From contig JAPLDN010000265.1 of NCBI GenBank assembly GCA_026391755.1, positions 1-37,490 of the forward strand: 37,490 nt of DNA. Direction: 5' to 3'. This document shows positions 2,991 through 24,000 of this stretch, piece by piece. The translations under genes and the position numbers were made by a program. Every line of letters starts with the position of its first letter. Within the stretch, counting starts at the first letter, position 1. Below the pieces are notes generated by a model. It saw nothing but the letters and a program-made list of their open reading frames with translations. It was not told the origin of the DNA and made no database searches. The DNA comes from Bacteroidota bacterium (GTDB lineage: Bacteria; Bacteroidota; Bacteroidia; Bacteroidales; FEN-979).

Positions 2991-3020
2991 TTTATCTCAG
3001 AATTTAAATTCTGAGATAAA
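2991..3020. promoter_or_regulatory. 30-bp perfect palindrome, candidate operator or 5'UTR hairpin
   Basis: TTTATCTCAGAATTTAAATTCTGAGATAAA is its own reverse complement; ends 4 bp upstream of the ATG (2984-2986, minus strand). Confidence 0.75.
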
Positions 3021-3128: not shown

Positions 3129-3317
3129 TTATAGGAACTGTGAAAATTTCTCGTCTATATGTTCATTGAACCAACGGTCGATGACCGTTTTCCTGAACCT
3201 CCATTCCTTTCCCAGCTTGGCCGCCGGGATCTTTCCGTCCTGGGCCCAGGTGTATATCGTCTGAGGTTTGACCTTCAGGTATTTTGCAACCTCTTCAAGG
3301 GTCATTATATCTTCCAT
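3129..3317 (-). CDS. Small MerR/BldC-like (HTH_17, excisionase-family) DNA-binding protein
   Basis: 62 aa; MTLEEVAKYLKVKPQTIYTWAQDGKIPAAKLGKEWRFRKTVIDRWFNEH winged-HTH signature. Confidence 0.9.
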   Translation of the reverse strand: MEDIMTLEEVAKYLKVKPQTIYTWAQDGKIPAAKLGKEWRFRKTVIDRWFNEHIDEKFSQFL

Positions 3318-3320
3318 GGC

Positions 3321-3827
3321 CTATTTTGCGCTTTTACGTAAGAGTGTAATTGTATCGGCCGGAGTTGAGGTTATGTTGTTTCCCCGATCAGCAGGCTGGG
3401 GCGGTTTCTCAACCGGCTTTGCCGGGGTAACGATCTGTTCCACCGAATATACTATGGCTGTATAAAAATTCCCCTCGTATTTCCTGAACCATTTGAATTC
3501 CTCGTTCTTTTCGCAGAGGAACGGGCGTAGGTTCCATGCAAGCTGAATTCCCACAAAAGCCAGGATTATCACCCATATCCTGAAAACGGTGACGCCGATC
3601 TGCGGATAAATATTTTTCTGGTCACAGGCATATTTCAGGGCATCCACCATCAGTTTCATACCGAAAATTCCTGCGAAAATAAAGATCGCAACATGAAGCA
3701 GCTGCAGGAAATGATAGTTCCCCCCGGTGACCTGGAAGACGATCACTATCGGCGCAAATGAAAGGGCGATTGTGGCTGTAAGCACCACCCCTCCAAGCAC
3801 TATCATCGTCATCTGCCTGAAGCTCAT
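3321..3827 (-). CDS. Multi-TM membrane protein of unknown function, operon partner of the HTH protein
   Basis: 168 aa with several hydrophobic helices; stop is 3 bp from the HTH start; frame stays open upstream (SGKFIIQQVLGSKMSFRQM), so the true N-terminus may be longer. Confidence 0.75.
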   Translation of the reverse strand: MSFRQMTMIVLGGVVLTATIALSFAPIVIVFQVTGGNYHFLQLLHVAIFIFAGIFGMKLMVDALKYACDQKNIYPQIGVTVFRIWVIILAFVGIQLAWNLRPFLCEKNEEFKWFRKYEGNFYTAIVYSVEQIVTPAKPVEKPPQPADRGNNITSTPADTITLLRKSAK

Positions 3828-3908
3828 CTTTGACCCCAGGACTTGCTGGATGATGAACTTCCCTGATGTCGGTCGAAGATTTCATAAGCTGATTTTTTTG
3901 TATACTGA

Positions 3909-3939
3909 CAAAGATAGTACATTTATAATCGTTTGTCAA
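3909..3939 (-). promoter_or_regulatory. Bacteroidota-type -33/-7 promoter of the membrane protein/HTH operon
   Basis: Minus strand TTG-N20-TATCTTTG (CAA at 3937-3939, CAAAGATA at 3909-3916 on plus), matching TTG/TANNTTTG. Confidence 0.65.
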
Positions 3940-3970
3940 TGTTTTTTACTGTTTTCTATTGTTTAGTACT
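3931..3970 (+). repeat. Four 10-bp-phased direct repeats GTTTnnnAnT (candidate regulator array), plus a degenerate fifth at 3921-3930
   Basis: GTTTGTCAAT GTTTTTTACT GTTTTCTATT GTTTAGTACT head-to-tail with no spacer; preceded by ATTTATAATC. Confidence 0.75.
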
Positions 3971-4041: not shown

Positions 4042-5421
4042 ATGAGCAAACAGATAACATTAGCCCTGGCCTTCATATTGCCGGTAATGATACAGGTTTC
4101 CCAGGCCCAGAACCAGGATTCCATTGTCATCCGAAAGATGTATACCGAAGCCCTGACCAATCCTGCCGGATATAAAAGCCTGGAATATTTATGTACGAAG
4201 ATCGGGGGGCGGATTTGCGGCACAGCCAAAGCGGAGGAAGCGGTGCGGTATGTGAAGAAGTTGCTTGAGAGCATGAAGCCCGATACTGTTTACCTCCAGC
4301 CTGTAATGGTGAAGCATTGGGAAAGGGGCAATAAGGAAATTGCACAGATCATTTCCAAAAAGAAAGGGAAAAAAGAACTGCATGTTTGTTCACTCGGGAC
4401 TTCTATTGGCACTGGAGATGCAGGGATAACAGCGGCTGTTATCGAAGTTCACAATTTCGACGAACTGAGGACTATAGGCAAAAAGGGAATTGAAGGGAAG
4501 ATAATCTTTTTCAACCGGGCCGCCGATGAATCACGTATCAACACTTTCGATTCCTATGGAGGAGCCGTCGACCAGCGTGCCCGGGGCGCCATGCAGGCGG
4601 CCCGATTCGGAGCATCGGCCGTCATTGTGCGCTCGGCAACCACCTCCCATGACAATTTCCCGCATACAGGGGTTCAGCATTATGCCGATACCGTTAAGCC
4701 TATCCCGGCGATGTGTGTGAGTACTAATGATGCAGACCTGTTGTCGGCCTGGCTTAAAGAAGATCCCTCCCTGAAACTGTTCATGAACATGAATTGCAGC
4801 AATCTTCCCGAAGTTCAGAGTGCCAACGTGGTCGGCGAGATCAGGGGAAGTGAACACCCTGAGGAAGTCATCGTATTCGGGGGCCATCTCGATTCCTGGG
4901 ATATAGGTGAAGGGGCGCATGACGACGGAGCAGGGATGATACAGGGCCTTGAGGTCCTCAGGATCTACAAAGCCCTTGGAATAAAACCGAAACATACCAT
5001 CAGGGCGGTTGCGTTCATGGATGAGGAGATAGCCCAGAGAGGGGCCGCAGCGTATGCTGAAGCAGCAAAAAAGAAAGGTGAAAAACATATCGCAGGTATC
5101 GAGGCCGACCGGGGGGGGGCAAGCCCCTGGGGCTTCTCAATCGATGCACCAGATCCGCAGTTAAATAAAATTAAGAGTTGGAAACCCCTGTTCTCGCCTT
5201 ACAACCTCTGGTTCTTCGAAAAAGGCGGCAGCGGGGTTGACATCAGCAACCTGAAAAAACAGGGAAGCCCGCTGATTGGATACGTGACCGATCCCCAGCG
5301 CTATTTCGATTATCACCACAGCGCCAATGACACTTTCGATAAAGTCAATGTTCGTGAACTTGAACTAGGCGCTGCTGCGATGTCAGGACTGGTGTACCTG
5401 ATCGACACATATGGGTTATAA
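4042..5421 (+). CDS. Secreted M28 family zinc aminopeptidase
   Basis: 459 aa; signal peptide; FGGHLDSWDIGEGAHDDGAG, FMDEEIAQRGAAAYAE and DYHHSANDTFDKV motifs. Confidence 0.92.
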   Translation: MSKQITLALAFILPVMIQVSQAQNQDSIVIRKMYTEALTNPAGYKSLEYLCTKIGGRICGTAKAEEAVRYVKKLLESMKPDTVYLQPVMVKHWERGNKEIAQIISKKKGKKELHVCSLGTSIGTGDAGITAAVIEVHNFDELRTIGKKGIEGKIIFFNRAADESRINTFDSYGGAVDQRARGAMQAARFGASAVIVRSATTSHDNFPHTGVQHYADTVKPIPAMCVSTNDADLLSAWLKEDPSLKLFMNMNCSNLPEVQSANVVGEIRGSEHPEEVIVFGGHLDSWDIGEGAHDDGAGMIQGLEVLRIYKALGIKPKHTIRAVAFMDEEIAQRGAAAYAEAAKKKGEKHIAGIEADRGGASPWGFSIDAPDPQLNKIKSWKPLFSPYNLWFFEKGGSGVDISNLKKQGSPLIGYVTDPQRYFDYHHSANDTFDKVNVRELELGAAAMSGLVYLIDTYGL

Positions 5422-5445
5422 TTAAGCGGGATAACTGGATAACTG

Positions 5446-5475
5446 GATAACTGGATATCCAGCGATCCAGTTATC
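5446..5475. terminator. Hairpin between convergent genes (likely bidirectional terminator), seeded by an 8-bp tandem repeat
   Basis: gataactggat (5446-5456) / atccagttatc (5465-5475) perfect 11-bp stem; left arm is the last unit of (ataactgg)x3 starting at 5431. Confidence 0.55.
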
Positions 5476-5490
5476 TAGCAATCCAGACCC

Positions 5491-21093: not shown

Positions 21094-24000
21094 ATGAATA
21101 AGTTATATGCTCCTTTTATTTTCCTGGTTTTATGCATCTTGGCTCATACAAAAACTTTTTCCCAGGCACCTAATTCATGGGTGCAAAAACACGACCTGGG
21201 GCTGAATGTTTCTGGTGCCCCCAGTCCAAGATCTTATAGTGTGAGTTTTTGCATAGGCACAAAAGGGTACTTGGGAACAGGCTATGATTTCACAATTAGT
21301 AATATTAAAAAAGATTTCTGGGAATATGATCCAACAGCTGACACCTGGACACAAAAAGCTGATTTCGGTGGTACGGCAAGATATAACGCCGTTGGTTTTT
21401 CTCTTGGGTCGAAAGGATACATCGGAACAGGTTATGATGGAACTAATAATCTCAAAGACTTTTGGGAATATGACCCTTCCTCCAATACCTGGGTACAGAT
21501 GGCCGATTTCGGGGGAACGGCAAGATTTGGTGCTGTTGGATTTTCTCTAGGGTCTAAAGGATATGTCGGAACTGGTTATGACGGAAGTGATTTTCTCAGG
21601 GACTTCTGGGAATTTGATCCTTCGGCTGATACCTGGACTCAAAAAGCTTATTTCGCGGGAACTGCAAGAGCTTATTCAATCGGGATCAGTGCAGGGGGAA
21701 AGGGATATGTGGGAACAGGATATAACAGCGGCAATTTTTCCGCCGACTTTTGGGAATATGATCCATTGACCGATGTATGGACGCAAAAAGCAGATTTCGG
21801 CGGAGGTGCGAGGGCCAGTGTGGCTGGTTTTTCCATCGGCAGCAAAGCTTATATTGGAACAGGTATAAATACTTTGTATGAAGGTACAAAAGATTTCTGG
21901 GAGTATGATCCTTCAACCGATACCTGGACACAAAAATCAGATGAGGGAGGATTGGAAAGATATAGTGCTTTCGGCTTTAGTATCGGGACCAGGGGTTTCC
22001 TGGGGGGAGGCGAATATGTTAATCCAATGAATGACTTCTGGGTATTTGACCCTTCCGCTGATACCTGGACTCAAAAAACCAGCTTCAATACCTATACAAG
22101 ATCTAATGCTGTGGGTTTTAGTATCGGCACAAAAGGATATATCGGTACCGGTTATCAGGGTTATGGCCCTTTTACTAATGATTTCTGGGAGTATGATCCT
22201 TCGGCTGATACCTGGACACAAAAAGCTGATTTCGGAGGAACTGCAAGAGCAGGAGCAGCCGGCTTTAGTATTGGAGGTAATGGGTTTATCGGGACTGGTT
22301 ATGATAATAATTTCAACGCCAGGAATGACTTTTGGGAATATGATCCATTGACCGATGTATGGACGCAAAAAGCAGATTTCGGAGGAAGCGTACGGTCTGA
22401 TGCCGTCGGATTCAGTATAGGGACAAAAGGATATATAGGTTTGGGGTTTGACGGCAATTCGTTAAAAGATTTTTGGGAGTATGATCCTTCTACTAATGCC
22501 TGGACGCAAAAAGCTGATTTCGGGGGCGTGGGGCGATATAATGCCGTCGGATTCAGTATAGGGGCTAAGGGATTTATAGGGACGGGCAATAGCGGAAGTG
22601 GTTTTCTGAACGACTTTTGGGAATATGATCCTTCGACTGATACATGGTCACAAAAAGCTGATTTTAGCGGATCGGCCAGGTATTATGCTGTTGGTTTTAG
22701 TATCGGAGCCAACGGGTTCATCGGTACAGGATATGATAACAGTGGAAATACGAAAGATTTTTGGGAATATGTTCCTTCGTTAAATACCTGGATAAAAATT
22801 GCTGATCTCGGAGGGACAGCGAGGACTTTTGCCCTTGGTTTCAGCATTGGAAATAAAGGCTTTGTTGGAACCGGCAGGGATTCCGGATTATTAAAGGATT
22901 TTTGGGAATACACCCCCTGTGCTTTACCTTCCGTTCCTGTTAATACGACGCCTTCTACAAACCTGACGGTATGTTCAGGGCACAGTACAATCCTCAGCGC
23001 AAGCGGTAGCGGAATCCTGGGTTGGTATGATTCTCCCGCAGGAGGCAACTGGCTTGGGGGCGGACAGAATTTCACGACACCTGCGCTAATCAGCAGCACG
23101 ATGTATTTTATCCAGGATAGTACCTGTTTTGCCGGTAGTTCAAGAACCCCCGTCTTTGTATCGGTCAATCCATCGCCATCGGCATACACCGGGCCAGACA
23201 TTTCTATATGTCTTAATTCAAGTACAACCTTAGGAACTGGCCCGGTTCCCGGAAGTACATACCATTGGACTTCTTTCCCTGGTACATTCACTTCCAACCT
23301 GGCAAATCCAATAGTTACACCCCTGGCAACAACCAGGTATACACTGACTGAAACAATCAATGCTACGGGATGTACAAGAAGAGATAGTATCATTGTAACT
23401 GTTAATCCGCGACCTGCAGCAATTACAGGGGCCAGCAGGGCCATTTGCCTGAATGCAACCACACAGCTCGGAGCTGCCCCTGTTGCCGGTAATACATACA
23501 ACTGGACTTCTTTCCCCGGCACATTCACTTCAACTCTTTCAAATCCAATAGTTACACCAATTGTTACAACCCTGTATACTTTAACTGAATCGATCACTGC
23601 CACCGGATGCACAAATACCAACAGCGTCATTGTGACTGTTAATCCCCTGCCCTCTGCTCCTTCCATCACCGGCCCGGCATCTATATGTGCTGGGACTACT
23701 GGGAATGTCTATTCAACTGAACCGGGGAAGGCTGGTTACCAATGGTACATCTCATCAGGGGGAACCATTCTCTCTGGTCAGGGAACTCCCGCTATCACGG
23801 TTCGCTGGGATCTGGAAGGGGCACAGTTTGTTTCTGTTAATTATGCCAATTCCTTCGGCTGTTTCGCCCTGGCCCCGGCAGTTAAAAACGTTACAGTGAA
23901 TCCTTTGCCCATCCCTTCCATTGCAGGACACGACAGCCTGTGTATGAACGAAACAGGAACATATGTAACCGAAAGTGGTATGCATAACTATTCATGGGTT

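Follow-up and report, generated by a model that had tools for sequence, protein, structure and literature searches.

In the 37,490-nucleotide stretch of Bacteroidota DNA analyzed here (the window), an array of 10-bp repeats lies at the promoter of an operon that encodes a membrane protein and a 62-aa HTH_17 protein. Comparison with relatives suggests that this tiny HTH protein very probably binds the array to control its own operon. In the reading that we consider likely, the array serves an autoregulated two-gene module as its dedicated operator, on which the HTH protein would bind as a cooperative head-to-tail chain that is gated by the membrane protein.

The array and the two-gene module

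The 10-bp repeat array is real. It consists of four contiguous units at positions 3931 to 3970, GTTTGTCAAT GTTTTTTACT GTTTTCTATT GTTTAGTACT, with a period of exactly 10 bp, and the preliminary description of this DNA was exact in both the sequence and the coordinates of the head-to-tail arrangement. On the minus strand, from which the operon is read, the units follow each other as AGTACTAAAC (unit 1, 3961 to 3970), AATAGAAAAC (unit 2, 3951 to 3960), AGTAAAAAAC (unit 3, 3941 to 3950), and ATTGACAAAC (unit 4, 3931 to 3940), and then come GATTATAAAT, GTAC, and TATCTTTG. The unit consensus on this strand is A(A/G)TAnnAAAC. Units 1 to 3 are present in relatives too, and unit 4 is invariant across the six module-bearing genomes of the window's genus (g1). 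Six of the 10 columns are invariant across the four units, as compared to a maximum of four in 30 first-order Markov windows of equal length and of five, reached four times, in 2000 shuffles of the local AT-rich 160 bp. The fourfold pattern has a single match in the window, and pattern searches of the 3.16-Mb genome found two consecutive units (GTTTNNNANT) only as three overlapping positions of the array itself.

The array extends into the promoter. The -33/-35 element TTGAC (3939 to 3935, minus strand) is 1 bp from the last base of unit 3 and falls inside unit 4; thus, this element is immediately preceded by three full units and is overlapped by the fourth. Unit 3 ends 24 bp from the Bacteroidota -7 element TATCTTTG (3916 to 3909, minus strand). 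A degenerate fifth unit had also been proposed at 3921 to 3930 (ATTTATAATC on the plus strand, GATTATAAAT on the minus strand), but the conserved motif model did not pick it as a member of the array, and this segment is the promoter spacer between -33 and -7.

The module consists of a gene for a multi-helix membrane protein of about 260 aa, followed directly by the gene for the 62-aa HTH_17 protein. In the window, the membrane-protein gene (3321 to 3885, minus strand) is broken: it begins with the ATG at 3885 to 3883 (MKSSTDIREV...), lacks about 218 bp near 3850 to 3860, and continues as an in-frame remainder from 3860 to 3324, which matches positions 82 to 262 of the membrane-protein model. 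As compared to all close relatives, 218 bp are missing from the window between this ATG and the ATG at 3827, which disrupts the reading frame, and relatives carry intact frames of about 260 aa that begin with MKxxxxIREVFxIFQNKES at the equivalent of the ATG at 3885 to 3883. Thus, the 168-aa product initially taken for the full membrane protein is only its 3' fragment. The loss at 3850 to 3860 is a genuine lesion or an artifact of assembly. About 45 internal codons are also apparently absent from an isochorismatase-like gene (2549 to 2969), as compared to a relative from the same genus (L087, 199 aa), and these two nearby internal losses point to either local decay or faulty assembly. A perfect 30-bp palindrome, TTTATCTCAGAATTTAAATTCTGAGATAAA, is located between the HTH and isochorismatase genes (2991 to 3020).

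In the structure model of the membrane protein (pLDDT 82.6), long helices form a bundle; the C-terminal part is less certain, and some parts have low confidence. The motif QLAWNLRPF...F..FR...GNFY is almost invariant. We found no credible or consistent match in Pfam, NCBIfam, or PDB by either sequence or fold. DUF1686, DUF6057, and Yip1 gave weak, scattered matches that were inconsistent between members and were rejected as the identity of the protein.

The HTH gene directly follows the membrane-protein gene in all 20 genomes of the window's family that carry the latter (two genera, window counted) and is complete in 19 of them; in the other, L015, the contig ends within the HTH gene. In the order-wide sample, the membrane protein is patchily distributed (9 of 295 genomes), and all seven genomes with an HTH match at E<1e-30, out of 247, also have the membrane protein. 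One copy (G090, loci L030 / L137) has a membrane-protein gene with a damaged N terminus and no recognizable HTH gene downstream, while array-like repeats are still found upstream; it looks like a decaying module. No neighbor genes conserved across lineages were found, only lineage-specific ones. Among the latter is the divergent M28 peptidase gene (4042 to 5421, plus strand), which lies outside the module. It is a neighbor in genus g1 only, and the arrays of other lineages have no adjacent M28 gene. Because of this limited distribution, the earlier proposal that the array also controls the peptidase is unsupported. Just downstream of the peptidase gene, positions 5429 to 5486 contain a tandem repeat, (GGATAACT)3.6 followed by (ATCCAGCA)n. 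Elsewhere in the window are two arrays of imperfect tandem repeats of about 141 to 144 bp (21310 to 21669 and 22323 to 22664), which may encode tandem protein repeats since their period is a multiple of three.

Conservation, specificity, and phase of the array

We scanned the membrane-protein alignment against 85,462 species genomes, which gave 108 relatives, and fetched 80 of them. The fetched relatives are labeled Bacteroidota, Ignavibacteria, Zixibacteria, GN15, KSB1, and Planctomycetota, with a patchy distribution. The HTH gene comes after the membrane-protein gene, mostly at a spacing of no more than about 35 bp, in almost every locus that offers enough sequence, and nearly every copy of the module has three to five clear units of A(A/G)TA-A-n-AAAC at its promoter. 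The gene pair and the array are both present in a plasmid copy from Chondrinema litorale. We compared 78 non-identical upstream regions, 20 of which come from the window's family; they include related genomes and are not all independent. The best self-match lag was 10 in 73 of them. Three AAAC at a period of 10, with a match of at least 11 of 12, were found in 63 of these regions, as compared to 0 to 4 for other periods and 1.2% in shuffles. A motif derived from Bacteroidales only located the best array of the locus less than 300 bp upstream of the membrane-protein gene in 22 of 23 non-Bacteroidales loci, and in the sole exception (L138), the upstream region is masked. Phased repeats are conserved upstream of orthologous HTH/membrane-protein pairs in several phyla, which was the point on which the preliminary description had staked its reading.

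The array is also specific to the module. In 44 genomes of the family, the exact double unit gave 22 matches, 21 of them at the module, while the reversed pattern gave 10, and no double unit was detected in those family genomes that lack the module. An exact two-unit match on contig 29 of G018 (L042), at a locus without the module, fits chance. In 37 module-bearing genomes, reached via the fetched loci, all 17 matches (in 14 genomes; control, 5) were at the module. No second array was found in these 37 genomes, and the output of the "sensory" module is for this reason not apparent. A three-unit pattern with one mismatch showed no clear excess over the reversed control in 295 genomes of the order, where the AT-rich background swamps the signal. 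Exact three-unit matches were found at modules in G000, G049, G219, and G310 and away from modules in G082, G106, G132 (contig 64), and G289; L062, L075, and L080, which cover the matches of three of these off-module genomes, contained no HTH or membrane-protein match. The restriction of the array to the module is the pattern of a dedicated auto-operator; it is evidence against a global regulator as well as against a generic promoter feature.

Of the 25 loci with a TTGAC element, 22 have it starting 0, 1, or 2 bp past the three-unit core, and in most loci examined, the array either adjoins -35/-33 or overlaps it. In most Bacteroidota loci, the distance from the array to TAnnTTTG is 4, 14, or 24 bp; this corresponds to a phase of 4 mod 10 relative to the -7 element, which is seen in 26 of 35 loci, and lineages differ by whole helical turns. 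For 27 loci outside the window's family, the phases are grouped around 3.7 (R = 0.79, Rayleigh p ~5e-8, relatedness ignored); these distances were taken by hand to the nearest TAnnTTT[GA], and L115, whose array lies a long way from the start codon, was omitted. The array of genus g2 lies over the -33 position and replaces this element instead of sitting upstream of it. In L032, L033, and L161, which form one membrane-protein subgroup, the orientation of the array is reversed relative to the operon. The fixed helix face suggests a contact with RNA polymerase; steric occlusion alone would not require a defined phase.

The HTH protein and the probable control of its promoter

The presumed ligand of the array, the 62-aa HTH_17 protein (3129 to 3317, minus strand), is a BldC-like mini-MerR regulator. 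Its scores exceed the cutoffs for HTH_17 (PF12728; 67.3 bits versus 27) and for the excisionase-family DNA-binding protein (TIGR01764 "excise"; 56.1 versus 28.8), while the curated cutoffs for the BldC family (NF033787; 32.9 bits versus 77) and the MAD1 equivalog (NF047737; 72.2 versus 80) are missed. In a profile search of PDB, BldC (6AMA, 6AMK) was the sole match. The AF2 model (pLDDT 88.7) shows a wHTH with one C-terminal helix and neither a coiled-coil dimerization domain nor an effector domain. The closest folds found by Foldseek were BldC-smeA and then BldC-whiI, and RdfS and Pukovnik Xis were among those that followed; the E-value of 0.016, at probabilities of 1.00, is weak because the domain is short. 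The likeness to BldC that had been noted before is borne out by both sequence profile and fold, although the protein falls below the curated BldC cutoff.

The positions that form the BldC interface are retained in 55 homologs from several phyla: W31 is W in 55 of 55, L43 is L or I, E16 is E or D, R22 is K or R, and F21 is L. According to the HTH-BldC profile alignment and the numbering of PMC5859096, F21, R22, E16, W31, and L43 of BldC correspond to L14, K15, E9, W24, and L35 of the window protein, and the base-reading R30 is replaced by T23. Because the interface residues are kept while R30 is replaced, the protein probably assembles like BldC but reads a different sequence. The recognition region PQTIYTWAQ...IPAAKLGKEWRF is almost invariant among the homologs, as expected if the operator site is likewise invariant.

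The specificity of the array and its conservation across phyla strongly support autoregulation by the HTH protein through a BldC-like direct-repeat operator. Together with the likeness of the HTH protein to BldC, the restriction of the repeats to the module makes this predicted mode of control, which had been put forward from the window alone, the best explanation. The accompanying idea of a Bacteroidota analogue of BldC regulation is supported as to the BldC-like character of the system; it is no Bacteroidota speciality, as the module is also found in other phyla. From the fold, the interface, and the period, we infer cooperative filament assembly, in which the HTH_17 protein would form a head-to-tail chain on the 10-bp A(A/G)TAnnAAAC units with one protomer per helical turn, like BldC. 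The chain would occupy one fixed face of the DNA, against the -35/-33 of its own promoter, and would in this way control it. The strict pairing of the two genes suggests that the membrane protein most likely gates the HTH protein, which might occur by sequestration or by relay of an envelope signal and would result in a membrane-gated feedback loop. We slightly prefer activation over repression because of the fixed phase, the abutment to -35, and the precedent of LytTR Regulatory Systems; the array over -33 in genus g2 suits occlusion, and thus repression, as well as activation. Several other observations weigh against this overall account: the reversed arrays of L032, L033, and L161, the threonine in place of R30, the short fold match with its weak E-value, the lack of a second array in the genomes searched, and, for the membrane protein, a model with low-confidence parts and no fold match that points to a function.

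Plain negative autoregulation would use the same operator as this membrane-gated loop and differs in sign and in the role of the membrane protein, which would be a dose-controlled product and not a gate, while the HTH polymer occludes -35/-33. It is a serious possibility, to which we give somewhat less than an even chance. In most loci examined, the array touches or overlaps -35/-33, and no further targets were found in the 37 module-bearing genomes, both of which fit simple occlusion; however, the fixed phase of 4 mod 10 is not needed for it, and LytTR systems of similar layout are activators (PMC6193735).

The operon-strand A-runs, spaced by 10 bp directly upstream of the promoter and in fixed phase to it, could form a phased A-tract UP element, that is, bent A-rich DNA that raises basal promoter strength with no dedicated regulator. 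We think this improbable, given that non-A positions (T at 3, C at 10) are kept across phyla, that the array is found at only one promoter per genome searched, and that in genus g2 it takes the place of -33 instead of an upstream position; the three loci with opposite orientation (L032, L033, and L161) are likewise hard to explain by bending alone. Co-encoding is no proof of binding, and a different, unlinked regulator could occupy the array. Such a protein would need to travel with the module, as the operator is kept across phyla only beside the HTH and membrane-protein genes and is missing from module-free family genomes, so that there is little probability in this reading either. The least probable alternative, in our view very unlikely, is that the HTH protein serves as an excisionase (recombination directionality factor), with the array as one arm of a mobile-element attachment site. 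The TIGR01764 score, the patchy distribution with one plasmid copy, and the binding of Xis, RdfS, and phage 186 Apl to repeats one helical turn apart would agree with such a role, but there is no conserved recombinase neighbor, an integrase-like gene is near only three closely related loci, and the array is at a promoter in fixed phase.

A wider extension of the membrane-gated loop, which we advance tentatively and think rather doubtful, is a cross-phylum class, not described before, in which a membrane protein of no known fold controls a BldC-type filament-forming mini-HTH whose sole array-type genomic site is the phased 10-bp array at its own promoter. Cooperative assembly of the filament against RNA polymerase at -35 would then determine the state of this promoter. 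The module represents a natural family with a short, strongly conserved, exactly periodic, and promoter-phased operator that is near-identical from Bacteroidota to Planctomycetota. As such, it is an unusually clean system for the question of how head-to-tail wHTH filaments read DNA and contact RNA polymerase, and it extends to Bacteroidota -33/-7 promoters too. The operator also provides a regulatory handle on an uncharacterized membrane-protein family of several phyla.

Comparison with known systems

Filament-type wHTH regulators on direct repeats are already known. In the literature searched, to which subscription papers are largely external, we did not find this HTH family, its operator, the fixed promoter geometry, or the pairing with a membrane protein, and the same search gave nothing on MAD1 operators or on Bacteroidota HTH_17 proteins with 10-bp operators. 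BldC is, to the knowledge of the authors who described it, the only MerR-like regulator that binds direct repeats by the wHTH alone, and its sites are loose and variable (PMC5859096). Its head-to-tail contacts involve F21, W31, L43, E16, and R22, and on the AATTXXXX(C) repeats, Arg30 reads the C-G pair (PMC5859096). Similarly to BldC of Streptomyces (smeA-sffA and whiI operators; 6AMA, 6AMK), the HTH protein described here is a small effector-less MerR-like wHTH associated with direct repeats of about one turn, and it retains the hydrophobic interface and the E/R(K) pair. In contrast to BldC, the operator is A(A/G)TAnnAAAC instead of AATTXXXX(C) and has a period of exactly 10 bp, R30 is replaced by T, the curated BldC score is missed, and the wide BldC regulon is replaced by one dedicated auto-operator and a membrane partner.

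RdfS, Pukovnik Xis, and phage 186 Apl are also wHTHs that assemble on repeats one turn apart, and the first two are among the closest folds to our HTH model. Their sites of action are attachment sites and, for Apl, phage promoters too, whereas the array described here is at a host promoter with no linked recombinase. MAD1 (methylation-associated defense; NF047737) is the best NCBIfam match of the HTH protein (72.2 bits), and NF047737 and the PADLOC mad1 model each match all 55 HTH homologs; the module differs from it by its membrane-protein partner and by the lack of conserved defense genes nearby. Because the MAD1 models match all 55 homologs while defense neighbors are not conserved, automated defense calls could mislabel these HTHs.

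Judged by layout, the closest architectural analogue is provided by the LytTR Regulatory Systems (HdrRM and BrsRM), in which a membrane inhibitor restrains a regulator that activates its own operon via direct repeats located just upstream of -35 (PMC6193735). Both have an operon of a membrane protein and a DNA-binding protein, with repeats just upstream of -35. The regulator of the module, however, is HTH_17/MerR-like with no LytTR domain, its operator has three to five 10-bp units in direct succession, where LytTR systems have two 9-bp repeats spaced by 11 to 13 bp, and in the module, the membrane-protein gene comes first.
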